From positions 62,001-126,000 of the forward strand of contig FMBT01000339.1 of NCBI GenBank assembly GCA_900095095.1: 64,000 bases of DNA, given 5' to 3'. The notes under the pieces are model-generated. The model was given only the letters and a program-made list of their open reading frames with translations. It did not search any database and was not told the origin of the DNA. The stretch comes from Fragilariopsis cylindrus CCMP1102 (taxonomy: Eukaryota; Bacillariophyta; Bacillariophyceae; Bacillariales; Bacillariaceae). Shown in pieces: positions 1-27,051 of the stretch (position 1 is the stretch's first letter; each line of letters starts with the position of its first letter). A program made the position numbers and the translations under genes.

Positions 1-2969
1 AAACTGGGCATTGCACTTGGTTCCGTGCTCGGAATGAAACTGGGTGTGCTACTTGGATCACCACTAGGAGCAGAACTAGGACTACTACTAGGCTTGGTAC
101 TTGGAGCTGCGCTTGGGTCATGACTGGGCTGAGAACTTGGAATAGTACTCGGGGTATAACTTGGTGTGTTGCTTGGATCAAGACTAGGAACAGAGCTGGG
201 TAGAGCACTTGGCAAAAGACTTGGCTTGAGACTTGGTATGAAACTGGGCATTGCACTTGGTTCCGTGCTCGGAATGAAACTGGGTGTGCTACTTGGATCA
301 CCACTAGGAGCAGAACTAGGACTACTACTAGGCTTGGTACTTGGAGCTGCGCTTGGGTCATGACTGGGCTGAGAACTTGGAATAGTACTCGGGGTATAAC
401 TTGGTGTGTTGCTTGGATCAAGACTAGGAACAGAGCTGGGTAGAGCACTTGGCAAAAGACTTGGCTTGAGACTTGGTATGAAACTGGGCATTGCACTTGG
501 TTCCGTGCTCGGAATGAAACTGGGTGTGCTACTTGGATCACCACTAGGAGCAGAACTAGGACTACTACTAGGCTTGGTACTTGGAGCTGCGCTTGGGTCA
601 TGACTGGGCTGAGAACTTGGAATAGTACTCGGGGTATAACTTGGTGTGTTGCTTGGATCAAGACTAGGAACAGAGCTGGGTAGAGCACTTGGCAAAAGAC
701 TTGGCTTGAGACTTGGTATGAAACTGGGCATTGCACTTGGTTCCGTGCTCGGAATGAAACTGGGTGTGCTACTTGGATCACCACTAGGAGCAGAACTAGG
801 ACTACTACTAGGCTTGGTACTTGGAGCTGCGCTTGGGTCATGACTGGGCTGAGAACTTGGAATAGTACTCGGGGTATAACTTGGTGTGTTGCTTGGATCA
901 AGACTAGGAACAGAGCTGGGTAGAGCACTTGGCAAAAGACTTGGCTTGAGACTTGGTATGAAACTGGGCATTGCACTTGGTTCCGTGCTCGGAATGAAAC
1001 TGGGTGTGCTACTTGGATCACCACTAGGAGCAGAACTAGGACTACTACTAGGCTTGGTACTTGGAGCTGCGCTTGGGTCATGACTGGGCTGAGAACTTGG
1101 AATAGTACTCGGGGTATAACTTGGTGTGTTGCTTGGATCAAGACTAGGAACAGAGCTGGGTAGAGCACTTGGCAAAAGACTTGGCTTGAGACTTGGTATG
1201 AAACTGGGCATTGCACTTGGTTCCGTGCTCGGAATGAAACTGGGTGTGCTACTTGGATCACCACTAGGAGCAGAACTAGGACTACTACTAGGCTTGGTAC
1301 TTGGAGCTGCGCTTGGGTCATGACTGGGCTGAGAACTTGGAATAGTACTCGGGGTATAACTTGGTGTGTTGCTTGGATCAAGACTAGGAACAGAGCTGGG
1401 TAGAGCACTTGGCAAAAGACTTGGCTTGAGACTTGGTATGAAACTGGGCATTGCACTTGGTTCCGTGCTGGAATGAAACTGGGTGTGCTACTTGGATCAC
1501 CACTAGGAGCAGAACTAGGACTACTACTAGGCTTGGTACTTGGAGCTGCGCTTGGGTCATGACTGGGCTGAGAACTTGGAATAGTACTCGGGGTATAACT
1601 TGGTGTGTTGCTTGGATCAAGACTAGGAACAGAGCTGGGTAGAGCACTTGGCAAAAGACTTGGCTTGAGACTTGGTATGAAACTGGGCATTGCACTTGGT
1701 TCCGTGCTCGGAATGAAACTGGGTGTGCTACTTGGATCACCACTAGGAGCAGAACTAGGACTACTACTAGGCTTGGTACTTGGAGCTGCGCTTGGGTCAT
1801 GACTGGGCTGAGAACTTGGAATAGTACTCGGGGTATAACTTGGTGTGTTGCTTGGATCAAGACTAGGAACAGAGCTGGGTAGAGCACTTGGCAAAAGACT
1901 TGGCTTGAGACTTGGTATGAAACTGGGCATTGCACTTGGTTCCGTGCTCGGAATGAAACTGGGTGTGCTACTTGGATCACCACTAGGAGCAGAACTAGGA
2001 CTACTACTAGGCTTGGTACTTGGAGCTGCGCTTGGGTCATGACTGGGCTGAGAACTTGGAATAGTACTCGGGGTATAACTTGGTGTGTTGCTTGGATCAA
2101 GACTAGGAACAGAGCTGGGTAGAGCACTTGGCAAAAGACTTGGCTTGAGACTTGGTATGAAACTGGGCATTGCACTTGGTTCCGTGCTCGGAATGAAACT
2201 GGGTGTGCTACTTGGATCACCACTAGGAGCAGAACTAGGACTACTACTAGGCTTGGTACTTGGAGCTGCGCTTGGGTCATGACTGGGCTGAGAACTTGGA
2301 ATAGTACTCGGGGTATAACTTGGTGTGTTGCTTGGATCAAGACTAGGAACAGAGCTGGGTAGAGCACTTGGCAAAAGACTTGGCTTGAGACTTGGTATGA
2401 AACTGGGCATTGCACTTGGTTCCGTGCTCGGAATGAAACTGGGTGTGCTACTTGGATCACCACTAGGAGCAGAACTAGGACTACTACTAGGCTTGGTACT
2501 TGGAGCTGCGCTTGGGTCATGACTGGGCTGAGAACTTGGAATAGTACTCGGGGTATAACTTGGTGTGTTGCTTGGATCAAGACTAGGAACAGAGCTGGGT
2601 AGAGCACTTGGCAAAAGACTTGGCTTGAGACTTGGTATGAAACTGGGCATTGCACTTGGTTCCGTGCTCGGAATGAAACTGGGTGTACTACTTGGATCAC
2701 CACTAGGAGCAGAACTAGGACTACTACTAGGCTTGGTACTTGGAGCTGCGCTTGGGTCATGACTGGGCTGAGAACTTGGAATAGTACTCGGGGTATAACT
2801 TGGTGTGTTGCTTGGATCAAGACTAGGAACAGAGCTGGGTAGAGCACTTGGCAAAAGACTTGGCTTGAGACTTGGTATGAAACTGGGCATTGCACTTGGT
2901 TCCGTGCTCGGAATGAAACTGGGTGTGCTACTTGGATCACCACTAGGAGCAGAACTAGGACTACTACTG
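1..2969 (-). repeat. 240-bp tandem repeat array, about 12.4 copies, coding PSxx quartets on the minus strand
   Basis: A 240-bp unit is repeated head to tail from the window edge to about 2969. Inside each unit there is a 12-bp sub-period. On the minus strand this reads as twenty Pro-Ser-x-x quartets per unit (for example DPSAAPSTKPSSSPSS), so 240 bp equals exactly 80 residues. The copies look almost identical. I saw only one substitution (about 2687, silent in the PSxx frame) and one missing base (about 1470). Such homogeneity implies recent expansion or gene conversion. The true copy number may differ, because arrays like this collapse or expand in assemblies. The array is truncated by the left edge. 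Confidence 0.95.
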
Positions 2970-4710
2970 GCTGGTACTGAGCTGCGCTTGGGTCATGACT
3001 GGGATGAAAACTCGTTGAAAACTGGCCTTGAACTAGGAATACACTCGGGATTGAACTCGGTGTGTTACTCGGGCCAAACTCGGGACAGTACTTGGCGGAG
3101 CACTTGGATTAACACTCGGTGCTTTCCTGGATCCACCTTAGGAACTTCAGTAGTTGGTCTAGGTGTTCGAGGCGTTGCTGTCGGTTTTCTTGGTACAATT
3201 GTTTCAGCGCTTGGTAAAGAAGATGTTGGTGATAAAGATAGTGGAACAGATGGCAACACAGTAGGCGTTTCAGTTGTTGGTTTAGGTGTTCTGGCATTCT
3301 TGATGGTGTACGTGATTCTTCTGTTTCTGTGATAGGACTATCAGAAGGTGCAGAAGATGAAGAAGATGACGATGAAAAACCAGATGGAAAGGCTGTAGGG
3401 GTAAATGTTCCACCTTTGCCTTTCCCTCTACCTGATTTTCCTCCCTTGCCTTTGCCATTTGACTTTCCACCTTTAGTAGTAGGTTCAGTTGTTGGTTTAG
3501 GTGTTCGTGGCTTCTTGATGGTGTACGTGATTCGTCTGTTTCTGTGATAGGACTAGTGGAAGGTGCAGTAGATGAAGAAGATGACGATGAAAAACCAGAT
3601 GGAAAGGCTGTAGGGGTAAATGTTCCACCTTTGCCTTTCCCTTTACCCTTTTTTCTCCTTTGTTTGACTTTCCACCTTTGTACTAGTACCAGTACTCTTG
3701 CCTTGTTTCGCACTTTTGGTGGTTCCATTCGACTTCCCACCTTTAGTACTAGTACCAGTACTCTTGCCTTGTTTCGCACTTTTGGTTGTTCCATTCGACT
3801 TTTCACCTTTAGTACTAGTACCAGTACTCTTGCCTTGTTTCGCACTTTTGGTGGTTCCATTCGACTTTTCTCCTTTAGTATTAGTACCAGTACTCTTGTC
3901 TTGTTTCGCACTTTTGGTGGTTCCATTCGACTTTCCACCTTTAGTACTAGTACCAGTACCCTTCCTTTGTTTCGCACTTTTGGTGGTTGAAGATCTACTC
4001 CCTTCTCCTCCTTTCATTTTCTCTTTGCCATTCGACTTTCTAGCTTTAGGACTAGTATCGGTACTCTTGCCTTGTTCCGCAATTTTTGTGGTTGACGATG
4101 ATCTTACTGTTTCTGAGTTACTCGAGTATGTTACGTCTGATCCATTCGAAGCTTTTGTAGCTGGTCTGAGCTCACGTTCTTTTCTTGAATTTTCCTTCTT
4201 GACCTTCTTCCGTTTGTTCTTGCATTTGTTCTTGTTCTTCTTCCACGAACAGTTCTTCATTTTGCGGCAGTTTTTGCGTTTCATGGTTTCACCGCAGGTT
4301 TTTCCAAGAACACACTTCTCGTCCTTCGACCACTTACACTTCACACCCTTAATACCGTTCACCGTCTTCTTACAGGCATTATCACTGTTGTTGGTGGTAA
4401 CGGCACACGGATCCAGTGCTTTCGTAACACACTTCTCGGTCTTCTTCGACCACTTACAGTCGTAGTCATAACCCTGGGCTATCCAGAGGCACGCATCCTT
4501 TTCAAAGTCGAACACGACGTTATACTTCGTACTCTCAATACTGGACGTCGTCCGACTACAGGCATCATAAATATTGTTGGAGAGAACGGTACACGGATCG
4601 TCTTCCAAGGCACGGCTTTCGTTGTTCGACGATGCGGCACCACGGGATGCAGCATCGGTCGAGGACAACGAGAAGAGAGCAAGGGTAACAATCGTAGCAA
4701 AAATCTTCAT
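1..4710 (-). CDS. Secreted PSxx-repeat / Lys-rich (silaffin-like) cell-surface protein, 3' end outside the window
   Basis: The start at 4710 opens a signal peptide (MKIFATIVTLALFSLSSTDA). Residues 35-165 are Cys-rich with repeats of the type DPC..N.DAC..CKWSK..KC. A KR-rich stretch follows, then about five 22-residue repeats of the kind SNGTTKSAKQGKSTGTSTKG (66 bp each, 3674-4005), then Gly/Lys, Ser-run and Pro/Thr segments, and finally the PSxx array. Lys/Ser-rich secreted proteins and PSxx proteins are typical of diatom walls and surfaces, so a wall or adhesive role is inferred. The first continuous frame stops at 3643, and the later segments lie in changing frames. Two 94-nt GT-AG introns (3553-3646 and 3338-3431) are possible. 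However, the frames with sensible composition are linked by steps that each look like one missing base, which fits the error pattern of the whole window. The single-gene model is therefore an inference; the signal peptide and Cys-rich head are solid. Confidence 0.7.
3338..3646 (-). repeat. About 215-bp direct duplication inside the secreted-protein gene
   Basis: Two near-identical modules lie about 215 bp apart (the string cagatggaaaggctgt occurs at 3381 and 3596). Each encodes Gly/Lys repeats, a TFTPTAFPSGF motif, a run of seven serines and ESRTPSR. Because 215 is not a multiple of three, the two copies read in different frames. An ancestral 216-bp duplication with one lost base would explain this. 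Confidence 0.75.
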
Positions 4711-14327: not shown

Positions 14328-14501
14328 TTTATAACTCCACTTTTTGGTACTTCTACTTCTTCTACTTCTTCCTTCTTCTTCTTGATATCGATACAATTCT
14401 TCGTTTACTTTTACAATAATCATTGGCAAAGATACAATTATGAATTCTTTTGTGAGAAAAGAGTAGTTTGCCGAGAAAAATCTGTTTTGACTTCAACCAA
14501 C

Positions 14502-14505
14502 AACT
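14502..14505 (+). repeat. Left target-site duplication AACT
   Basis: The four bases AACT directly abut the left inverted repeat, and the same four bases follow the right inverted repeat at 26714-26717. This fixes the outer ends at TCCAC.../...GTGGA. A 4-bp match can arise by chance, but it falls exactly at the inverted-repeat ends. Confidence 0.7.
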
Positions 14506-14721
14506 TCCACAAAAATGCGCGGCTTAGAGCTCCAGTTAGTCTTCTAACTGGAGCTCTAAGCTCCAGTTATAACTGGAAGTGCGCATCACAGTTATCAGAC
14601 TAACTGGAGCTCTAAGCTCCAGTTAGGCAATATTTTTAGTCGGTCTAGTCAAACCCCATGAAAAAAGTCGTTAACACGTGCTTAGCAGCACTCAAACCCT
14701 CATTGTATCTTAGAATGAGGG
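14506..14721 (+). repeat. Left terminal inverted repeat, 216 bp
   Basis: Reading from the outer end (TCCACAAAAATGCGCGGC) inward to ...AGAATGAGGG, this segment equals the reverse complement of 26498-26713, with no difference that I could find. It is packed with short inverted motifs. TAACTGGAGCT-CTA-AGCTCCAGTTA (11-bp arms, 3-base loop) is followed by related copies, and CTCCAGTTAG-TCTT-CTAACTGGAG forms another stem, so the outer half can fold into several hairpins. Confidence 0.95.
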
Positions 14722-15091
14722 AGCTAGCCAGCTAGCTAGAGGATAGACACATAAATTCGATTCAAATGCCAACAAAAAATTGTGAGACAGACCCACGGAG
14801 ATTCTTATTGAGGGTGGCACTCCACCACCACAACCAATTGACAATGAGGTCCAACCGAAATTTTACAATGGGATGATTCAAATGTCAATAAAAAACTAGG
14901 ATCCACGGAGAGGAATTATTCTCTATTCTTATCGTGGGCGAGGGTGCATGTTGAGTGTGGTTGTGATTGTGGTTGTGGGTTCTGCTTTTAGATTTAGGCT
15001 CAACACAACAAGATTCAAACATCCAAAGCATCTACCACAAACAAAAGTAGGATAACTGTCATAATATCCAGAAATTGTCTGCAGCAATAAG
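14722..15091. other. Subterminal non-coding region of the element
   Basis: There is no ORF. Two related segments about 115 bp apart (starting near 14760 and 14875) share gattcaaatg, a caa(c/t)aaaaaa run and ccacggaga, so this is a degenerate direct repeat. It probably contains the promoter of the gene at 15092. Confidence 0.5.
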
Positions 15092-15928
15092 ATGAAACTT
15101 GCTTTTACTGCCTACCGCACTACAGGATTGTTGGGGGAAAAGCAAACCCAACGGCTTAGTGACGAGACATACCCTCTTGAAGATGGCGTCGATATCTATG
15201 TGAAAGAACTGAGAGTATTCACGAAAAGTTCTTGCTGTCCTATGCATTTAAAGCCTTGTCACCATTGTGTTGAGTACGGAAATCTTACCATTCCAAGATC
15301 CTTCCTATTTCATTTCGAAAACAGCGAAGGAACGTTTACATGCAAGGACAGCAGTCATCCATCAATATATATCAATGGTGGCAAGAAAGAGAATAAGATT
15401 GAGCTTGACGAAGTATTTGAAATTGCAGTTGATACTATCATTTACCTACGCAAAGCTTTGGGAAGCTGTGATGATCCAATGCTAGAATTCCGTGTTGTTG
15501 CTCTCGATGAACGCGAACTCGAAATAGTAGAAGACTTCGAAGTCGAAACTGTTGTTAGTATCGAATGCATCGACGCTGATGTAGATGCCGAGGATATTCC
15601 TACCCCTGAATCATCGAAGACACCAAACGCTTCTACACCAATTCCATTAGTTTCAGTAACTTTTGCTGCCCCCATGGCCGAATCTACCCCCATCCATACT
15701 GCTCGTTTATTGGCGTTTGAAGCAACGCCTTCAACGTCACGTTCTGCACTTGATCCACCGGTATCTTCTACCAAAGGAATCGTTCTAAATGATCCTGCTG
15801 GTAAATCGCCACAGTTTAGACTTCAATCACCAGAACCAATGCGATCACCACTGCCAGTCAATAGAGATACAACACCATCGATGAAGAATCTACGAACCAA
15901 TCCAAACAAGAAGCACAAGAAGGATTAG
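15092..15928 (+). CDS. Unknown element-encoded protein, 278 residues
   Basis: An intact ORF lies 370 bp inside the left TIR. The N-terminal half is folded-looking, with a Cys/His cluster (SSCCPMHLKPCHHC, about residues 47-60) and a further Cys near residue 83. A short acidic segment follows, then a Ser/Thr/Pro-rich tail (residues about 170-265) ending in a basic KKHKKD that could be a nuclear signal. I do not recognise a family. It points convergently towards the transposase candidate across a minisatellite. Confidence 0.7.
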   Translation: MKLAFTAYRTTGLLGEKQTQRLSDETYPLEDGVDIYVKELRVFTKSSCCPMHLKPCHHCVEYGNLTIPRSFLFHFENSEGTFTCKDSSHPSIYINGGKKENKIELDEVFEIAVDTIIYLRKALGSCDDPMLEFRVVALDERELEIVEDFEVETVVSIECIDADVDAEDIPTPESSKTPNASTPIPLVSVTFAAPMAESTPIHTARLLAFEATPSTSRSALDPPVSSTKGIVLNDPAGKSPQFRLQSPEPMRSPLPVNRDTTPSMKNLRTNPNKKHKKD

Positions 15929-16825
15929 AAATGTGTTGCCACTGTCGAGAATTATATGTAATCGATCGACTCTATAGTACAAATAAAATTTGAAAGATCA
16001 TATGTGAACTTAATAATGTTCTATCTAACTTGTTATCTATTACTACAACTAACATATGCATGTAAATAAATAATAATAATAGTACTTATATTATAAACTT
16101 TATCTCTTTCTTATACTACTATTATTAGATTTACGATTCGATTACTCTAGCCCGAATGGGACCATAATCCACAATTAGGGGCGATCTTCCTAACTCAAAT
16201 GATATGCGGCACGACCCTAATCCACAATTAGGAGAGACCAGTTCTAGCTCAAAGGACAGGCGGCACGACCCTAATCCACAATTAGTGGAGACATTTCTAG
16301 CTCAAATGAAAGGTAGCACGACCCTCAGCATAGATAAGGGATTGTCCAAATGATCCACAATTAGGGGCGATCTTCCTAACCCAAATGATATGCGGCACGA
16401 CCCTAATCCACAATTAGGAGAGACCAGTTCTAGTTCAAAGGACAGGCGGCACGACCCTAATCCACAATTAGTGGAGACATTTCTAGCACAAATGAAAGGT
16501 AGCACGACCCTCAGCATAGATAAGGGATTGTCCAAATAATCCACAATTAGGGGCGATCTTCCTAACTCAAATGATATGCGGCACGACCCTAATCCACAAT
16601 TAGGAGAGACCAGTTCTAGCTCAAAGGACAGGCGGCACGACCCTAATCCACAATTAGTGGAGACATTTCTAGCTCAAATGAAAGGTAGCACGACCCTCAG
16701 CATAGATAAGGGATTGTCCAAATCTTTAAAAATTACACGTAGTGCATTCTGAAATATAGTACCGAGCAAAGCGATAATGCCCTAAAAATTGACTAGAGTA
16801 CATTACTTGTTTATTTGTTTTATTA
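15929..16825. other. Convergent intergenic region of the element
   Basis: It separates the 3' ends of the 278-residue and 1056-residue genes. It contains AT-rich sequence with AATAAA-like strings, then a 186-bp minisatellite. Confidence 0.7.
16166..16725 (+). repeat. 186-bp tandem repeat, three copies
   Basis: Copies start at about 16167, 16353 and 16539, an exact 186-bp spacing. Each copy contains three sub-repeats built around cacgaccctaatccacaatt followed by a g(g/t)(g/a)g-rich segment. Copies differ at only a few positions. Confidence 0.93.
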
Positions 16826-19800
16826 CTATAAATTCGAATGACAAATAGAATATCTTTGTCTATTAAGAAAGTCGGGATGGATAACATAATACTTTTCATT
16901 CAATTCAAGTCTACGTTCCTCTTCCGATGTTACGCTTACAGACTTCTTGATCTCTTCTTTTATTCGCAAGCGTTCACTATCCCAATCATTCCCTCGATTT
17001 GCAAACTCTTTCTTGTATTTCTTCCGTAATTCGACTAATATACTAAGGAATTCCTTCACTGAGATTCTCTGCATACGATTACTCAAGCCGTCTCTATTGA
17101 ATTTGTCCTCTGTCAAATTGATGCCAAGATTCTGGAGAAGGTCTAGTGTATTGATTATTTCAGTAAGAATCGGGAGCTTTTTATTATCGGCCATTTTTTT
17201 CAAGGATACTTTGTCAACCGATAGAGCAAGTACAGATCTCTTATCGATTTCTTTCTTGTAATCTTTCTTAGTATAACAACCTGTTGAAATAGGAACACCA
17301 CCAGCTTTATATGATTGAGTTCTATTTGTTGAATGGCGATGATTAGGATCCAAGTAGAAAACCTCGATGATTTTATCCCTACGCCGTGCACCCAACGATC
17401 TATATTTCATTGTGTCATTTGAAAGAGGGCTACCATCCGGTGCTTGCACAGCATCAGTACTTGCTGGGAACATATCATCCGCACCAACCAAAACAGGTTG
17501 ACCAAATCGCCAAAGATTTGTATTTTCGATGGCAACCCTTATTTTTGCGTATACTTCCCAATCAGTCGATTTACTCTCATTAAAAGGTCCTGTGTATGTA
17601 CGCTCAGTTCCACGCAGAATCTCATTCTCCTTCTTTTGGGCGAGAAAAGAGTTAAGATTCAATGCCGCTGTAAACATTTTCTTAGTGATACCAGCAAACG
17701 TACGGGTTCCAACAATAGCACGAAACGATTTGTTCACTTTCTCTTGAGCAAGGTCAACGTACATGCGTTTACCTCCTTCTGATTCTCTTGTAAACGCAAA
17801 CTCTTCAAACAATTTAACTTCCCAAGGAGATGCCGCCACTTTCCAAATTAATAGCTCTACACAAATCCGAACATATTTATATGCGTTTGTTGTGCAAAAT
17901 AATGGTAGCATGATTCTCACTGCGGTAAAGAAGAGATCAGCACAATCAGAGCGTTCTGCGTCTCTTAATAAGAAATAGGCCTCTAAAAGCAACAGTTCAT
18001 CGAAAGCCATCTTCGCTGGAGGATATTTTACTGCTCTCTCTCTCATTGCGCTGTATACCTCTTGTGAATCTACATCATCTCTTTCCACAAAGGCTGCATA
18101 ATGCTCTACAGCTGATCTGTAGTGAGCAGCAATAGTAGGGATGGCTTCATTTTCAAATTGTCTAGGATCATATGGGTCCATAACAAATTTTTGCGACCCC
18201 TCCGTTCCCCGAAAATCGCCGATGTAATATCGTGTAACTTCTGAAACAACAGAGCTTTTCTTTGTTACAAGTTCCTTCATCATATGAAAACCTCCCGGGA
18301 AAGCACGTATATCTTTGTATCTATTTGCTCCGCTTGCCTTATCTTCGTCGATAATTGTGTGGGAGCTAAAGATGGGGGAACCATCGCCAATAAAGAACAT
18401 CACGTTCTCTATGATGGGTCGTATATTACTCTGATCACTTGATTTTGCCATCATTTCTTGTTGCATTCTTAACATCATTTCGAGATACTGCTTGACAACT
18501 TCGGATTTTGCAAGGTCCTCTCGTAAAGGTGCATCGACAAACATGTCATTCTTTTCTAGCATGCTCTTTCCATCTTGATTCAATGTAATTCGGTCCGATT
18601 CTTCCATGTCTGACACGTACTCTCGTGTCCTAAAAGGAACTCGCTTGCTATCGGTGTCATATTTCACTTGCGGATGCACATCGATACCTAAATTGCGGGG
18701 AATGCCATTGCCATTTCCCCATACGTAACACCCACTATCAATCATTACAGAGCATTGATCAAGTCTGGGTAGTGGTAATTTTATCATTGCTTCGATATGT
18801 AGCAGCTTACGATGCGATAGTAAGCGTAGGTCACCATCGTTTTCTTTCACGGTATGTTCGGCTAGAGTGAGTCCTTTCTCTTCAGATTCAATAATTAGCT
18901 GATCAATTGTCTTCATATCCCGACTTTGATTGACTTCATATAGATTTAATTCATTTAACTCAATTTCACGTACAAGTTTAATGGTATGAATGGTCCATTG
19001 ATCAATATGGTCCTTTCTACCTTTCTTTTCCATCACCAAATTATCGGCACAGAGCACAGGGAAATCATATCCATTTGGAATCGGAATATCATCAAAATTC
19101 GTGTTCGCGAAATCCATGGCACGATTTTTAAGAGTCGTCATTCCAGGAACAATTCGAAATTGAGACAATGCTTGGATGATTTTTTGCTCTACTTGAAGAT
19201 CATAAAGTAAAGAACCAATGGCCAGTTGCGAATTAGTATTCTGCTTATTGTTAGCGTTTTGATTGACATATAATGATTGCAACAATTGAAAGGCAGAAAA
19301 TATTGCCAATAAATCTTTCTTCGGCTCGCTTATAGATCTAGTTGTCATGTTTCGAATGTGATCTCTCAGATCTTTTATCAGAGTATCTCCCGTTGCTAAT
19401 GAATAGAGAAATAGAAAGGTTGGATGTGTGCATTCAATTGCTTCGTTTGCCAGATCAGAAATAGATAGTGACAAGTTACTATCATTAGGACGGGTTGCTG
19501 GTTTTGGAAATAGAGTTGAATGAAAACGCCTCGCTAACTCTACAAGAGTGTTTCGAATTCTATCTGAGCCGAGGCCCAAATCATCACTAATTTCTATGGT
19601 TTCACAAATGAAAAACTTCCCAATTGACGCATCCTCTTCGATAGCGATATACAAAATTCCTTTTCCTTTTCTTTCTTCTTTATCGGGGTATTTTTTACAC
19701 CAGTATCGATAAGGATCTTTCCCTTCGTTCGGGTCTTTGTAAATATCTTTTACAATAGGTTCTCGATGTTTCACTGCCTTTGTGAAGCTTCCATTGATCA

Positions 19801-19996
19801 GACAGACTCTGTGTTTTGTAATCCCACGTTTACAGTTGGCACATACCATTTCACGGGTATGTTCCTTTTTTGCGAGATCTCTACAGAGACATGGTAAGCA
19901 TACTCTGTGGTTGCAAGGATGCAATTGAGCTGATTCTTTTCCAGAAAGTTCATTGCTACAGCTGCAACAGGAATCAGTCGTTTCTTCAGCACTCAT
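16826..19996 (-). CDS. Putative transposase: RING-like N-terminus plus DUF6589-like catalytic core, 1056 residues
   Basis: A single uninterrupted ORF. Residues 10-56 form a RING-like C/H array (CCSCSNEL, HPCNHRVCLPCLC, CANC). The large middle region has a pattern I associate with DUF6589-type putative transposases: an ADN motif (Asp about 318), FFIGDGSP (Asp about 538), a GGFHMMKE block (His about 571), and helices around LLLLEAYFLL (Glu about 672). Later come NAYKYVRI and AQEKVNKSFRAIVGT blocks. A D/D/E triad is therefore possible but not proven. It is the only enzyme-like protein of the element and the best candidate to act on its TIRs. The RING could instead be a generic zinc-binding DNA or protein contact module. 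Confidence 0.75.
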   Translation of the reverse strand: MSAEETTDSCCSCSNELSGKESAQLHPCNHRVCLPCLCRDLAKKEHTREMVCANCKRGITKHRVCLINGSFTKAVKHREPIVKDIYKDPNEGKDPYRYWCKKYPDKEERKGKGILYIAIEEDASIGKFFICETIEISDDLGLGSDRIRNTLVELARRFHSTLFPKPATRPNDSNLSLSISDLANEAIECTHPTFLFLYSLATGDTLIKDLRDHIRNMTTRSISEPKKDLLAIFSAFQLLQSLYVNQNANNKQNTNSQLAIGSLLYDLQVEQKIIQALSQFRIVPGMTTLKNRAMDFANTNFDDIPIPNGYDFPVLCADNLVMEKKGRKDHIDQWTIHTIKLVREIELNELNLYEVNQSRDMKTIDQLIIESEEKGLTLAEHTVKENDGDLRLLSHRKLLHIEAMIKLPLPRLDQCSVMIDSGCYVWGNGNGIPRNLGIDVHPQVKYDTDSKRVPFRTREYVSDMEESDRITLNQDGKSMLEKNDMFVDAPLREDLAKSEVVKQYLEMMLRMQQEMMAKSSDQSNIRPIIENVMFFIGDGSPIFSSHTIIDEDKASGANRYKDIRAFPGGFHMMKELVTKKSSVVSEVTRYYIGDFRGTEGSQKFVMDPYDPRQFENEAIPTIAAHYRSAVEHYAAFVERDDVDSQEVYSAMRERAVKYPPAKMAFDELLLLEAYFLLRDAERSDCADLFFTAVRIMLPLFCTTNAYKYVRICVELLIWKVAASPWEVKLFEEFAFTRESEGGKRMYVDLAQEKVNKSFRAIVGTRTFAGITKKMFTAALNLNSFLAQKKENEILRGTERTYTGPFNESKSTDWEVYAKIRVAIENTNLWRFGQPVLVGADDMFPASTDAVQAPDGSPLSNDTMKYRSLGARRRDKIIEVFYLDPNHRHSTNRTQSYKAGGVPISTGCYTKKDYKKEIDKRSVLALSVDKVSLKKMADNKKLPILTEIINTLDLLQNLGINLTEDKFNRDGLSNRMQRISVKEFLSILVELRKKYKKEFANRGNDWDSERLRIKEEIKKSVSVTSEEERRLELNEKYYVIHPDFLNRQRYSICHSNL

Positions 19997-20834
19997 TTTT
20001 CAATATTATTGTCCTCTCTACCATCTCGGGTGTGAGAGATGCAATGATACATAGGTGCAGACAAAGAGAGACAGAGCCTTTCCCTCACCGTGAGTGCGGC
20101 TTAGTCAAAAAAACAAAAAAACAAAAAGAAGAACGCACCGAGGTTTAGGTTTTTGGGCGCGAAAATGCAGGTACAGACAAAGAGAGACAGAGCCTTTCCC
20201 CCACCGTGAGTGGGGATATGTCAAAAAACAAAAAACTGAAACAAGAACTAACTGTGGTGTAGGTTTTTGCGCGCGAAAATTCAGATTTACTAAGTGAACA
20301 ATGTAGCATTATTATGATATGATGTGTATGATTAATTGTACGTGTAAAAATTACTATGCATATATTTTATTTCAATTGCGTTCACCCTCTATCACGTTGA
20401 GGCTGTTTTCGCATTACAGTATGGTCGATCGTGTCTGTAAATATCACTACCACTATTTCTTGTCGATCTGTTGGGAATATAATATGTGGCACGGGAGTCT
20501 CCTCACTTTAAACTAGTGGAGTATCCGTTAGCCATCAAGTGATTTCAAAGAATGGGGGCAATGTATAGTAAAAATTGAAGCGTCTCCGTTTAAGTGGAAC
20601 ATAGGATCGTGGGACTAAGAAATTTCGTTTATGTAAGCACTAACTGATAAAATCATGTTCGTTTGTAATTATTCATATGAGCACATTCACTACTTTGTAG
20701 TGAGGGATTATTATCTTGTGGAAGTGAAGTTCCTACTTTTTCTTTACATTCTCATAACTTTCATATCTCAATATTCGAAAAGGGAAAACAGCTTACAAAA
20801 GCTTAAAGAAAATTGTAATTAAGACAAGATAACA
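19997..20834. other. Divergent intergenic (promoter) region of the element
   Basis: This is shared upstream DNA of the 1056-residue gene (minus) and the coiled-coil/Tudor gene (plus). It begins with a 116-bp tandem duplication and is otherwise AT-rich without ORFs of note. Confidence 0.65.
20053..20284 (+). repeat. 116-bp tandem duplication
   Basis: The string acagacaaagagagacagag occurs about 116 bp apart, with shared downstream blocks (cctttccc.caccgtgagtg, tcaaaaaacaaaaaa, taggtttttg.gcgcgaaaat). There are two imperfect copies directly upstream of the transposase-like gene start. Confidence 0.85.
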
Positions 20835-20948
20835 ATGACGTCGAATAGAGGTTTACAATATCGTCGCTCAGGAAGAGCATTGGCTACTTCAACCAACGCG
20901 ATGGATCCGCCCGTCAGAATTACAAACAAACGGAAGGTAAATAGATTG

Positions 20949-20983
<35 letters not shown>

Positions 20984-22538
20984 CTTTTGTGTCTGCCTTT
21001 ATTCTTCCTTCAATTCTTCTCAGCTGTTCTTCTCCTTCTAATAGTCCATTCTAAAACTGTAGCTACATCGATAGTTGCGGCGGTTGCAACAACAACAGGT
21101 CGTCCCCGTCGACCTATCAAACGTCGTGAACATCACGATGGTACCCCCCTCCTTACTTCTGTAGCAGCAAAACGCAGTAAGACTGGTGCTGCTGCGAGAA
21201 GGCGTCCAAGAAGAAAGCCGAAGAGAAGAAGAAGGTTGATCATGCCGCAAATATACTTGCCAAGGCTACTGCACAAGCTGAAGAAGAAAGGAAAGCTGCT
21301 GCCGAGAAGGAGTCCAAGAAGAAGGCTGATCATGCCGCGAAGATAGCCAGAAAGAAGATAGCTGATGCTGTCAAGGCTGCTGCAGAAGCTGAAGAAGAAA
21401 GGAAAGCTGAAGATAGTAGGATAGCTGGAGAAGAACAGACGCGAATGGAAAAGGAAAGACTAGAACGTGATGCTGTTGAAATGATTCCTAATGGGGATAA
21501 GAAACAACCAGCACTTGAGACTCCCAGAAGAAGCAGAAGGGAAGCAAGATGCTACTGTTGATTATTCTGCATATGAGAAGAAGGTTGATAATCATTTCAA
21601 AAATGGTAATTTGAAGGTTGGTTCTAGAATTGACGTATATAAAGACGGAAACGGATGGATTGCAAGCACTTGCGTCCTCGTGGGTGTTAATCAAGAAGAA
21701 CGTACAGTCAAAGTAGTTTATGAAGATGAAGACGATGATAAGGTGGTTCGTCTTGATTTAGGGAAAACAGCTTATGATATTTCACTAATATCTAAGGATG
21801 TAGAAGTATTAGACTGGGAAATGCCTGGATCTATCACCAACACCGACAAAAGGGATTCAGATGGAGCATCGAGTCAGTCGGCACAGCTAGCCCATATCAA
21901 AAGTTTTGTTGAAGAACAATTCTCGGGGTTTTTACAGAAAATAAGCGAGCCCAAAACCAAGGAGAAGGAAGCGACAGGGCCCAAAGATCCCAAGAGACCT
22001 ATCGGTACTCGTGCAAAGTCTGTTAAGGGGATGAAGGACGAAACTGTTCGTCGGATGTATGATGTGTTAACAAAATATACCGAGCAAGTTCAATTTACTT
22101 CTCAGTTTAAAAGTCAAGTTGACCGGGATTACCATCCCCCTTTTGGACAGTGATTATGAATGTTGACAAGTTGGTACTTAAACCCAGCGCAAAAGGAATC
22201 ACTCGTTATGAAAAACTCGAGCCAGTGGTTAACATGTTTGCTCAACCAGGTATTCCAGTTCTAGAATTGGCCAAAATCTCAGGAACGCTGCTGAGAATAT
22301 GGAGAAAGGAATATCCAAAGGCTGGACCTTGGCAAGTGGTACTGAAGAATTCGTTACAAATACTTTCGGACCCAGAGAAAATGATATTCCAAACAAGAAC
22401 AAAGATCTCGTGGCAGCCATGGCGGCTGAGCGAGAGGAATTAGAACAACAAGAATTGGAGGAGGCAGAAGCAGCAGCAACAGCAGCATTATTAGGGCCGC
22501 ATCCAAACCAACAACAAGGTGAAACTGGTGAGCTTTAG
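20835..22538 (+). CDS. Coiled-coil / Tudor-like protein of the element (frame interrupted)
   Basis: The N-terminal exon (20835-20936, basic) ends at a GT followed by a (TG)n tract. Downstream coding shows a basic AT-hook-like GRPRRPIKRR, a long Ala/Glu/Lys coiled coil (about 21190-21500), a segment whose sequence resembles a Tudor/chromo-barrel fold (VGSRIDVYKDG, VKVVYEDEDDDKVVRLDLG; 21600-21770), a linker, and a C-terminal Gln/Glu/Ala helix ending GETGEL at 22538. Neighbouring segments are in different frames, so the reading is broken or the consensus is faulty in a few places. Low-complexity coding makes exact joins uncertain. A chromatin- or nucleoprotein-binding role is only inferred from composition. 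Confidence 0.5.
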
Positions 22539-23849
22539 TTTGATTTAGCCAAGTAAACAAGCCCGTAATGGCGCGGCTTCAAATCGCTGCCATCATATGA
22601 TGATCAAGGATTTCATCAACTGTCCCCATTGTCTCAATGTGAGACTCTTATTACTACTACATCGATCCTGTCCATTGGACTGTTCCCGAGGATTCCGGCA
22701 TTGTTCTATACTGCATCAACTATACTCTATTGGGCGGTTATTTCGCTCTCAGTTTATCGAATCTAATTCATTTTAAATATAATATGATATATTTACAATA
22801 CAATATCGTTGTCGAATTTACTAGCTGCATTGTAGTCTCCTACTAATTCTCCTATTATGGTACTCACAGAATGATCGCTTTTCCTAGTGTCGGCCTCAAT
22901 AAGAGATAGGATATGTCTAAGTATCAGCTATATGCCATGTAGCTACTCTCAGAACGATCGCTTTTCTTAGCGTTGGTCTCAATCTGGAATAGGGTGTGTC
23001 TAAGTATCAACTATACGACACGTAGCTGGCCTCAATAAGAGATAGGATATGTCTAAGTATCAGCTATATGTCGCGTAGCTGCTCTCTGAACGATCGTTTT
23101 TCTTAGTGTTGGTCTCAATCTGGAATAGGGTGTGTCTAAGTATCAACTATACGACACGTAGCTGGCCTCAATAGGAAGTAGGATATGTCTAAGTATCAGC
23201 TATATGCCGCGTAGCTGCTCTCTGAACGATCGTTTTTCTTAGTGTTGGTCTCAATCTGGAATAGGGTGCGTCTAAGCATCAACTATACGCCACGTAGCTG
23301 CTCCTAGAATGATCATTTTTTCTAGTGATGGCCTCAATAGGAAATAGGGTGTGTCTAAGCATCAACTATACGCCACGTAGCTGCTCCTAGAATGATCGCT
23401 TTTCTTAGTGTAGGCCTCAATAGGAAATAGGGTGTGTCTAAGTATCAACTATACGCCACGTAGCTGCTCCTAGAATGATCGCTTTTCTTAGTGTAGGCCT
23501 CAATAGGAAATAGGGTGTGTCTAAGTATCAGCTATCCTCATTGATATTATTGGTTTGGGTACAGTGTAGTGTAGATATAGTTGATTATCTATTACGGTTG
23601 TCTATAGATAAAGGTCTAATTATAGATTAGGGATGCCACTATTTATGATGAGACTGCATCTATGTATAGTAGATTGAGGACGATTCGACTCAAGTTGTAA
23701 TGAAAATATAACTATGTAAATAATGGTGTGTGTTACACAAGTATGTGGCTGAGTTGTTTTTAATTCAGGTATTTAAATATATAAACATATATATTATACA
23801 TCAACACCCGATAATCTAATAAGTAATACTATTGATCGTATGATACTTC
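22539..23849. other. Convergent intergenic region of the element
   Basis: It lies between the 3' ends of the coiled-coil gene and the zinc-finger/PDZ gene and is dominated by an ~81-bp minisatellite. The remainder is AT-rich without a supported ORF. Confidence 0.7.
22868..23534 (+). repeat. ~81-bp minisatellite, about eight imperfect units
   Basis: Units carry gaa(c/t)gatcgcttttcttagtg, then ctcaat, aatagggtgtgtctaagtat and ca(a/g)ctata(c/t)g. Spacing between gatcg motifs is 81 bp in the cleanest part and about 136 bp where two units have partly fused. The last three units are the most alike. Confidence 0.88.
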
Positions 23850-26144
23850 TCACTCGTCATCATCACTGACATCCCAGTCTTTTTCGTAGTTGCAATCTCT
23901 GCTACAGTTACCTTTACTTCTATTGTTTACATAAGGTGTTTGACTTACCATGCGATTAGTTGCTACCGGTGCTATAGCACAGTCCGGAACAAGTTTCCTT
24001 TGATTTGCGATACGAGTAACTCCCTCTTCGTGTCTGCTTGCATCATATGCCGCCATACCATTTGGGAACTGTTTAATGACAAGATCTTCTGTATCCGTTT
24101 CGCCTGATATTATCGCACCAAGAATCCGATGCGCAGCTTTGATTACATTCATATTTCGGGCAATAACATAGTATTCTGGCTTGTCCCTTAGACACTTCCT
24201 GATGTCCTTACCTCGTGGTCCTCCTTTTGCATTCGACGGCTTAAATGGGTCGCGATGGACAAGAAGATTCCACATCTTGGGCCACTCATCAGTTAGATTT
24301 TTATCTAAAACAGGCACTGGAGTTATCATCGATTCGTAACAGTCGAAAGACTCAAGCAATAATTCCTTCTTAGCCTCGGCAGATTTGCCTTTAAAGTGCT
24401 TCATTTCTGTGACATTGTTCCCAACCTTCTGATCCGGTCTTTGGCGAGCTTTCGTAGCAACTGTCATAGCTCCTATACTATGGCCGAGTTCAACCTTATC
24501 GAGGGAGATTGCACACGATTGAGGAGCTTCCTTGGCGGCCTTGTTGCCCTTTTTGGTTTTCTTCTCAGTTGCTTTCACTATCTTCTTCTTCTTGTGATAT
24601 GGTGCTTGCATAATAGGGTATCGTGAGAAGATAATAGTCTTCACTTCTTGATACAACTTAGCAAACATTTCTTTAATCTCATTCAATGTATTGCCTGCTA
24701 CGTTAGTACCATTGATCGATACTAAAGTTTCACCACCAATCAAAAAATCACAAAGTGGACAGGAAGGTTTGATTTTCTTTACATACGGAGCTTCAGTTTC
24801 TATCATACCTAAGAGTAATCCAACCGCACCGGGTGGAAAGTCAAGTTGCACAAGAACTTTTTTACGTTCTTGCATGTTGCATGTGCTGCAGTCTTCATCC
24901 AGATCAATAATTTCCACCAAAGATTGAATTGTTGACGTAGAGGAGAGAGAGAGACGCGCCTTTGACTGATCATCTGGAGACGAGTCACCTCCACCTTCTT
25001 TTGAAGCTTGTTTTTGGACATCGGCTGTATCGTCACTATCACTACCATTATTACTACCTCCGGTAATAACAGCATTATTGAATGACTCTGATAGATCCTT
25101 TATTTCGCTCGATTTATAGATACCACCAGTATGCTTATCTTTACTTTTATTTTCAGTAGCTCTTTCTTTTGGTGGTTGGCACGAAAAACAAATCATTCCA
25201 ATACCGTCATCACTTGGACCACCACCGTTTGCTGAGCAAAGAGGGCCATGGAATGGACCACTACATTTCTTGCAATGATGTTGTACCGCGCCTTTGATTG
25301 TTCCATTCATTGTGCAATAATCACGAGAACAGCATTTAGGCAAATTAGTAGCGCCGCTGCCACTTAATTGTAACAATGAGTCTGCTGCTGCTGTTTCTCC
25401 TTCCATTTGATTGTTGTTGTTTTCGTTTTCTTTGTTGGTGTCAGTTTCTTCTTTTTCATTCTGATTGTTGCTTCTTTCAGTCGTTGGAAAAGTCGATTCT
25501 ACTGCTGCTGTTTCTCCTTCCTTTTGATTGTTGTTGTTTTCGTTTTCTTTGTTGGTGTCAGTTCCTTCTTTTTCATTCTGATTGTTGTTTCTTTCAGGTG
25601 CTGATTCTATTCCTGCTGTTCCTCCTTCCTTTTGATTGCTGTTGTTCTTAGTTTCGCTTGTTGTTTCATTTTCTTTGTTGGTGTCAGTTGCTGTAACCGT
25701 CGCACTGTTTTTCATCTGATTAGCTACTTTTCCTTTGGGATTTGGAGTGAGAATTTGCATAGTCCTACGGTAGGCTTTTTGTGATGTTGATACGTCGCGA
25801 GAAGATTGCCTTCTTAGAATCTTTGACTCTGGAGAAGCTGATGCTGATGCTGATGCTGATGCTGATGCGGACGACGGGGGTCGGCTTCGTTTATTTTCGT
25901 CATTTACCTGACCAGGCAATCCAGAATGGGACTTCACTAATGCATCCTTGATTAGTTGTAAGAGTATAACGCCTCTTTGATTCGCTTTGATGGAGAAATG
26001 CTTTGCAATTTTCTGTAAGCTTCTATGTTCCAAATTTTCGCGATCAAGGTCTACTTCATCGGGTAAGACGTCTCCGTCGTCGATGACGGTAATATCAAAT
26101 TGAAGAGGAGTACCATCGGATGTTTCAAACTTTAAGACAACCAT
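23850..26144 (-). CDS. Zinc-finger and PDZ-domain protein of the element, 764 residues
   Basis: An intact ORF. Residues 1-70 look folded (MVVLKFETSDGTPLQF...). Residues 92-103 are an SA run. Residues 150-255 hold tandem Asn/Gln/Glu/Lys repeats of the type TNKENENNNNQ.EGETAA (about 100 bp each). Residues 270-323 form a Cys/His cluster (CCSRDYC, HHCKKC, FHGPLC, CFSC) like a PHD or related zinc finger. Residues 430-507 match a PDZ fold (QLDFPPGAVGLLLGMIET, IGGETLVSINGTNV). A Lys-rich linker and an unknown C-terminal domain follow. PDZ modules are unusual in DNA-transposon cargo. It might tether the element's complex to a host partner, which is speculation. The start lies about 350 bp inside the right TIR. 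Confidence 0.75.
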   Translation of the reverse strand: MVVLKFETSDGTPLQFDITVIDDGDVLPDEVDLDRENLEHRSLQKIAKHFSIKANQRGVILLQLIKDALVKSHSGLPGQVNDENKRSRPPSSASASASASASASPESKILRRQSSRDVSTSQKAYRRTMQILTPNPKGKVANQMKNSATVTATDTNKENETTSETKNNSNQKEGGTAGIESAPERNNNQNEKEGTDTNKENENNNNQKEGETAAVESTFPTTERSNNQNEKEETDTNKENENNNNQMEGETAAADSLLQLSGSGATNLPKCCSRDYCTMNGTIKGAVQHHCKKCSGPFHGPLCSANGGGPSDDGIGMICFSCQPPKERATENKSKDKHTGGIYKSSEIKDLSESFNNAVITGGSNNGSDSDDTADVQKQASKEGGGDSSPDDQSKARLSLSSTSTIQSLVEIIDLDEDCSTCNMQERKKVLVQLDFPPGAVGLLLGMIETEAPYVKKIKPSCPLCDFLIGGETLVSINGTNVAGNTLNEIKEMFAKLYQEVKTIIFSRYPIMQAPYHKKKKIVKATEKKTKKGNKAAKEAPQSCAISLDKVELGHSIGAMTVATKARQRPDQKVGNNVTEMKHFKGKSAEAKKELLLESFDCYESMITPVPVLDKNLTDEWPKMWNLLVHRDPFKPSNAKGGPRGKDIRKCLRDKPEYYVIARNMNVIKAAHRILGAIISGETDTEDLVIKQFPNGMAAYDASRHEEGVTRIANQRKLVPDCAIAPVATNRMVSQTPYVNNRSKGNCSRDCNYEKDWDVSDDDE

Positions 26145-26497
26145 CTTGAAGTAGTGAAGAGATAAGAAGGTTTGTGTTGCAGAATTGGATTCATCCTAAG
26201 CAACAATCAATCATATTGTTTCCTCGACACATCAAATTGAAAAGCAAAGCTGGGAAATTCAAATTTTTAAATTTTTTAAATTGAATGTGTTACATAAAAA
26301 CCTCAAACACCGTCATCCTGATTTTGGTCAAATCTTATCGAAGCCAATCCTATGCAACAACCATATCATGACTGGTGCTAAATGGTAGAGAGGGGTGCTT
26401 TCATTCTAGTACAATGTATGGAGTTATGTCAATGGTAAGTCCCATTGTACTCATTGTACATGTAACGGTATGTATGTGCTACTGTTGCATAAGCTAG

Positions 26498-26713
26498 CCC
26501 TCATTCTAAGATACAATGAGGGTTTGAGTGCTGCTAAGCACGTGTTAACGACTTTTTTCATGGGGTTTGACTAGACCGACTAAAAATATTGCCTAACTGG
26601 AGCTTAGAGCTCCAGTTAGTCTGATAACTGTGATGCGCACTTCCAGTTATAACTGGAGCTTAGAGCTCCAGTTAGAAGACTAACTGGAGCTCTAAGCCGC
26701 GCATTTTTGTGGA
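26498..26713 (-). repeat. Right terminal inverted repeat, 216 bp
   Basis: Reverse complement of 14506-14721 over its full length. The outer end is GTGGA at 26709-26713 and AACT follows immediately. It contains the same set of hairpin-forming CTCCAGTTA motifs. Confidence 0.95.
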
Positions 26714-26717
26714 AACT
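26714..26717 (+). repeat. Right target-site duplication AACT
   Basis: Direct copy of 14502-14505, abutting the right TIR. Confidence 0.7.
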
Positions 26718-27051
26718 TATGTGCTACGTGGAAATATAAAGCTAATGTAGTACCAAAATCTCCTCCTCACCCCCCAAATCATATTCGGAAATATAATACA
26801 GACCCTTCGGAGAGGTCGGTGAAGGTCAAGACCGATTAAGGGTCAACCCAATACAAAACTTGAATTTTTCGAGCGAGCCAAAAAAATGCATTTGGCATTT
26901 TCGCTTTTTCAAAAATCTGATCAATTAAAAAATAAATGTTGTGTCTTTTGTTGTGTTTCTCACAGTAAACTTTCAGCTACTGTCGGCTATCTTCCGAATC
27001 AGAAAAACAAGTAAAGTAATAAACAACAACAAAGCCAAGCATAAAGTGACC

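Follow-up and report, generated by a model that had tools for sequence, protein, structure and literature searches.

The DNA analysed here (the window, 64 kb, C66:62001-126000) belongs to an assembly of 67.9 Mb in 818 contigs, which was searched as a whole; copy counts given below are lower bounds. The diatom origin proposed by a first-pass annotation was borne out by the silicon transporter family, which matched 27 genome stretches, all 27 above the cut-off (best E 1.1e-226), while the same profile gave a single match, under the cut-off, in 14 control genomes. The window contains an element of 12,208 bp (14506-26713) with terminal inverted repeats (TIRs), its ends being set by taking a flanking AACT as the target site duplication (TSD). 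It holds four open reading frames (ORFs) on alternating strands (Table 1).

Table 1. Features of the element and its borders, in window coordinates.
Feature	Position	Strand	Remarks
AACT direct repeat, left copy	14502..14505		presumed target site duplication
Left TIR, 216 bp	14506..14721	+	five AACTGGAGCT sites, alternating orientation
Gene 1, 278 aa	15092..15928	+	passenger or accessory gene
Tandem array, 186-bp unit, 3 copies	16164..16723		about 100 bp 3' of the transposase gene
Gene 2, 1056 aa, RING-like and DUF6589-related	16826..19996	-	presumed DDE transposase (D318, D538, E752)
Two 67-bp direct repeats, 88% alike	20053..20235		between divergent genes 2 and 3
Gene 3, coiled-coil and Tudor-like (label by eye)	20823..22535	+	all three frames; longest ORF 21491-22153
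Tandem array, 83- and 136-bp units	22861..23577		between genes 3 and 4
Gene 4, 764 aa, Cys/His finger about 268-329, weak PDZ-like stretch about 452-501	23850..26144	-	relatives 61-79%
Right TIR, 216 bp	26498..26713	-	100% complementary to left arm
AACT direct repeat, right copy	26714..26717		from the flanking repeat scan

On the left flank, a gene for an NmrA-like NAD(P)-binding protein lies on the reverse strand, and since its open frame starts at or below 14429, the element probably sits just upstream of it. Directly right of the element (26776-26824), a repeat of 35-49 bp was found 90-95% identical at C587, C394, C99, C196 and C278. At the left end of the window (1-3012), a 240-bp tandem repeat of 12.6 copies with 99% matches lies partly in an open frame on the reverse strand (1384-2943), and portions of an ORF at C83:190003-195009 share 84-87% identity with part of the repeated unit.

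Terminal repeats and their internal sites

The repeat search of the window returned a pair of inverted arms (14505-14721 and 26498-26714) of 217 nt with 100% complementarity, a length of perfect inverted repeat for which chance is no serious alternative. The TIRs proper are complementary at 216 of 216 positions and abut AACT on both sides, confirming the identical 216-bp repeats of the first-pass annotation. A scan of TIR starts from 14500 to 14511 and repeat lengths of 2-12 bp found no flanking direct repeat longer than AACT. The termini of the element are TC..GA. The identity of the two arms points to a recent insertion or to recent gene conversion between them.

Each arm carries five copies of the 10-bp site AACTGGAGCT in alternating orientation, and all ten copies in the window lie inside the TIRs, with none outside them within the 64 kb. 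Two such sites together form a 25-bp palindrome, of which the window holds four occurrences at up to 3 mismatches, whereas 100 shuffles averaged 0.00. From their arrangement, these arrays look like putative binding-site arrays.

Copy number and mobility

The search of the 67.9-Mb assembly found the TIR nowhere else, the four matches listed corresponding to the arms themselves and to inverted segments within them, and no solo TIR or MITE was found in the assembly. No empty site was seen in the assembly either; the flanks are single there, short repeats aside, and therefore no empty site is readable. Searching the genome with the transposase recovered the gene itself and one relative, on contig C90, and the same two places were obtained with the related protein P0006 as query. 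The multiple loci of shared gene order expected for a mobile family were thus not seen: the element was found once, and the C90 locus retains just the transposase with a coiled-coil gene beside it. No transposase relatives were found in viral contigs or GTDB genome contigs, and neither relatives of genes 1 and 4 nor the TIR palindrome were found in the viral contigs; as these collections are viral or prokaryotic, absence from them says little.

We infer from the structure of the locus that the element is mobile. The single occurrence in the assembly, the lack of an empty site and the interruption of gene 3 described below would also fit an immobile inverted duplication, or an assembly artefact, around host genes. 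Such an origin is highly improbable, because the inverted repeat stops exactly at the 4-bp direct repeat, AACTGGAGCT is confined to the arms, and the transposase also turns up on further public contigs, in one case at 89% identity, and has a relative at C90.

Gene content of the element

The alternating strands of the four ORFs given in the first-pass annotation were confirmed, and the third of these ORFs probably represents just a portion of its gene. The full extent of gene 3 is tiled by open stretches that overlap and use all three frames, and the frame changes may reflect a decaying copy, small assembly length errors or missed introns, the other three ORFs being whole. Judged by eye, a first intron would be possible from about 20937, and at the later changes the overlapping open stretches leave little room for one. 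With gene 3 interrupted, this copy of the element may not be fully autonomous and may need a partner protein from elsewhere.

The Pfam scan of the four ORFs at E<=1 gave no match to a polymerase, capsid, ATPase or integrase, in agreement with the first reading of the sequence, and no match to a helicase or nuclease. Weak Pfam matches of the four ORFs to Ntox33 (E 0.046) and CLIP_SPH_Scar (E 0.33) were taken as chance, and the NCBIfam scan of the element proteins gave a single match at E 0.99. The Tudor label attached earlier to gene 3 found no support in Pfam or NCBIfam.

The GC3 of the four ORFs is 0.34-0.36, and two host ORFs are close to it (0.36 and 0.39). At 16056-16144, the element also contains a dispersed repeat of about 85 bp with 14 further genome matches at 74-90% identity; four of these lie on C72 at intervals of about 10.4 kb, a spacing that would suit a large array of tandem units.

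Gene 2 encodes a presumed DDE transposase distantly related to DUF6589

The gene 2 protein itself has no strong Pfam match; its match to DUF6589 (Pfam PF20231) is at E 0.12 and 11.4 bits. The search of a 5.8-billion-protein database, in which the 7982 candidates sharing most words were scored, returned two matches, both from public assemblies: P0001, with 1 difference in 1056 residues, and P0002, identical at 944 of 1053 aligned residues (89%). The C90 relative is 25% identical to the gene 2 protein, and when it was read through its stop and searched, P0004 matched at 100% over the searched part and P0005-P0008 at 55-57%. The gene 2 protein, P0002 and P0004-P0008 were aligned, leaving out P0001 as a near duplicate of the gene 2 protein and P0003, to which P0004 was preferred.

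DUF6589 was matched by six of these seven proteins at E<=5, the gene 2 protein included (P0002, 0.04; P0005, 5.6e-5; P0006, 5.4e-4; P0007, 5.3e-5; P0008, 4.9e-4), the seventh being P0004 by elimination; the C90 read-through had no DUF6589 match at E<=1. The link to DUF6589 made in the first-pass annotation therefore stood, at a distance: the best match reached 22.5 bits (E 5.3e-5) and all fell short of the curated cut-off of 27 bits, indicating that the gene 2 protein is a distant relative and not a member of the family. The likeness lies in one stretch of the profile, since the six matches start at position 274-294 and end at 371, spanning roughly one fifth to one quarter of its 410 positions. 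In the gene 2 protein, this match covers residues 690-765 and holds the invariant D748, L749, E752 and K753.

D318, D538 and E752 are invariant in all seven aligned proteins, as are other acidic residues, and the three are candidates for the catalytic triad. The gene 2 protein is accordingly best read as a presumed DDE transposase, which upholds the earlier view of this 1056-aa frame as a transposase-like protein in a TIR element. The RING label fared less evenly: the cysteine pattern at the N-terminus matched at E 0.0039 in the C90 protein and at a weak E 2.7 in the gene 2 protein.

No PDB sequence match for the transposase core was found; the seven matches (E 0.12-0.45) were to five RING proteins and two glucoamylase chains. 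AlphaFold2 modelling gave no usable fold for either the gene 2 or the gene 1 protein, the gene 2 model being of low confidence (mean pLDDT 34.8, pTM 0.26). The DUF6589 profile had no match in a search of the diatom's own genome, in which the controls were silent too, so that this absence carries no information, and no mention of DUF6589 was found in the literature searched.

Comparison with known transposon groups

Like TIR DNA transposons in general, the element has TIRs bounded by a short direct repeat, here 216 bp and AACT. Academ transposons generate a 4-bp TSD and carry an XPG-type nuclease beside the transposase. The element could be a divergent Academ member with a DUF6589-related transposase, whose helicase and nuclease parts were lost or never present, and both its 4-bp TSD and the supported relation to DUF6589 fit this reading. 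We regard it as unlikely, because none of the four ORFs matches a helicase or a nuclease in Pfam at E<=1 and DUF6589 goes unmentioned in the literature searched; the Academ link suggested earlier thus found no support. A report on fungal AcademH elements describes them as low in copy number, like the element, and as linked to helicases (PMC10799480); the four ORFs of the element have no helicase or nuclease match.

Pfam holds a KDZ model, and the KDZ family was absent from the 10 Pfam families matched by the seven aligned proteins. KDZ elements (Kyakuja, Dileera and Zisupton) are DNA transposons able to carry genes besides the transposase, as the element does, and a Dileera family has a TSD of 8 bp (PMC12730594), in contrast to the 4 bp found here. 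The same source gives TSDs of 2-5 bp for the CMCT group, comprising EnSpm/CACTA, Plavaka, Transib and others (PMC12730594), a range into which the 4-bp repeat falls. CMCT transposases have C(2)C and H(3-4)H motifs between the second D and the E, and the elements mostly end in CA..TG, whereas C(2)C occurs in none of the seven aligned proteins, H(3-4)H occurs in five of the seven but not in the gene 2 protein, and the termini are TC..GA. The C/DxxH motif that a published account places between the second D and the E in hAT, MuDR, P, Kolobok and Dada (PMC10045372) is present in 0 of the 7 proteins. The element differs from Ginger and other elements with retroviral-type integrases in that no integrase Pfam match was obtained from the four ORFs at E<=1. 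Membership of the element in Academ, KDZ, CMCT or Ginger is not supported.

The C90 locus and a probable two-gene core

The transposase-like gene on C90 (773405-776422, forward strand) has one in-frame stop, and lies back to back with a gene on the reverse strand (770144-772636) for an 831-aa coiled-coil protein with IQ motifs (E 1.4e-16). The transposase and gene 3 of the element, on the reverse and forward strands, respectively, have the same arrangement. The stop is absent from P0004, indicating that intact copies exist.

The protein of the C90 neighbour was compared with the pieces of gene 3. The piece including the Tudor-like part scored 79 against the tail of the neighbour, a value reached by 0 of 500 shuffles and 1 of 1000 local shuffles. 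Nearly all of this came from 68 aa after the Tudor-like part, which scored 76 against the tail (0/1000 local shuffles as high), compared with 31 for the reversed tail and 40 for the best of 48 other ORFs. The match being concentrated in these 68 aa, the two proteins share a C-terminal stretch and not a demonstrated Tudor domain. Further along the same tail, the last piece of gene 3 scored 52, against 45 for the best of 48 other ORFs; this score was reached in 3 of 1000 local shuffles, and in shuffles of the ordinary kind 1 time in 500 on the tail and 7 times in 500 on the full neighbour. The matches of the coiled-coil piece (6/500 shuffles as high on the full protein, 88/500 on the tail) and of a 100-aa piece (111/500 and 353/500, respectively) were not convincing. 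Searches by tblastn gave nothing for the gene 3 ORF against C90 and a best E of 1.7 for the C90 neighbour against the element, and in genome searches with the gene 3 or C90 neighbour protein neither listed the other.

The surroundings of the two transposase genes were also compared. C90 has a 188-bp array (2.7 copies) 3' of the transposase, in the place corresponding to the 186-bp array of the element and of different sequence, and an 89-bp unit present twice 5' of the transposase, comparable to the duplicated 67-bp unit, the two loci being without DNA similarity there. No TIR was recognisable in 40 kb around the C90 transposase gene, and no relatives of genes 1 and 4 were found in the same 40 kb. 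The C90 locus is probably an old remnant, and as it keeps the transposase together with a neighbour matching part of gene 3, the core of the element probably comprises two genes. In a 1544-aa ORF on C221, a stretch (C221:23156-23452) shares 85% identity across 98 residues with the part of the C90 neighbour that contains the IQ motifs, a possible case of gene-part exchange with the host.

Genes 1 and 4

The gene 1 protein is 47% and 49% identical to ORFs of the same genome at C265 and C178, respectively, with a weaker and shorter match at C83:79868-80077, and has no Pfam or PDB match. No relatives of the other three element proteins were found in the 40 kb (C265) and 30 kb (C178) fetched around these ORFs. 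The simplest reading is that a member of a host gene family was taken up by the element; transfer in the reverse direction, from element to host, is possible.

Gene 4 has relatives in public assemblies (P0010, 79%; P0011, 66%; P0012, 61%) that cover 81-100% of its length, with the C-terminal half well conserved. Partial matches were P0013 (95% over 9%) and P0014 (47% over 23%), and both were left out of the gene 4 alignment because of this short coverage, as was P0009, which is the window's own sequence. P0010 is identical to the gene 4 protein (23853-26144) over the first 249 aligned residues and then at 376 of 500, so this relative is a mosaic, produced either by natural recombination or by assembly. 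The earlier PDZ label is weak, the PDZ-like stretch having a PDB sequence match at E 0.36 as its only basis.

The Cys/His finger of gene 4 recurs in an ORF of 1623 aa on C83, with 69% identity across 62 residues, and seems to be an exchanged module. This ORF (C83:203806-208674) has no Pfam match at E<=0.1 and contains what we take, by eye, to be an HxxR region like that of tyrosine recombinases; a facing ORF at about 198-202 kb is joined to it by inverted repeats of 79-92% identity, and the locus may be a Crypton-like element.

The conservation of gene 4, with relatives of 61-79% over 81-100% of its length, and the GC3 shared by the four ORFs (0.34-0.36, though two host ORFs come near) could be taken to mean that all four genes form a fixed working set, with genes 1 and 4 acting in transposition or in evasion of silencing rather than travelling as passengers. 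This seems doubtful to us, given that genes 1 and 4 have no relatives in the 40 kb around C90, that no transposase relative accompanies the gene 1 relatives in the stretches fetched at C265 and C178, and that the gene 4 relatives lie on contigs differing in length from those of P0001 and P0002.

Discussion

Taken together, the element is probably a DNA transposon of the DDE type that belongs to a little-known lineage and was inserted recently, residing in a diatom. In the mechanism that we propose, the transposase would bind the five AACTGGAGCT sites of each TIR, through its N-terminal RING-like finger or through a partner, and would cut both ends with an RNase H-like centre formed by D318, D538 and E752, and insertion with a 4-bp stagger would leave the AACT repeats. 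A conserved partner would be the coiled-coil protein encoded by gene 3, perhaps a subunit for chromatin targeting or for complex assembly. The probable source of gene 1 is a family of host genes, and gene 4 would play an accessory part, with a finger that passes from one protein to another.

A broader proposal is advanced tentatively, as one that may well claim too much: the element could represent a new diatom DDE lineage at the level of a superfamily, defined by a RING-like finger joined to a DUF6589-related core and by an obligate, divergently transcribed coiled-coil/Tudor-like partner that reads chromatin, both assembling on TIR arrays of five alternating 10-bp sites. The element is still of the cut-and-paste-like TIR type, and would thus stand for a new lineage and not for a new principle.

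DUF6589 is listed in Pfam as a family "of unknown function", and the occurrence of a DUF6589-related protein in an element with clean ends and a flanking repeat suggests a likely job for it. The element also supplies defined DNA ends on which the function of DUF6589 may be tested, and the conserved divergent neighbour of the transposase points to transposition by a system of two proteins in an algal group of major ecological importance.
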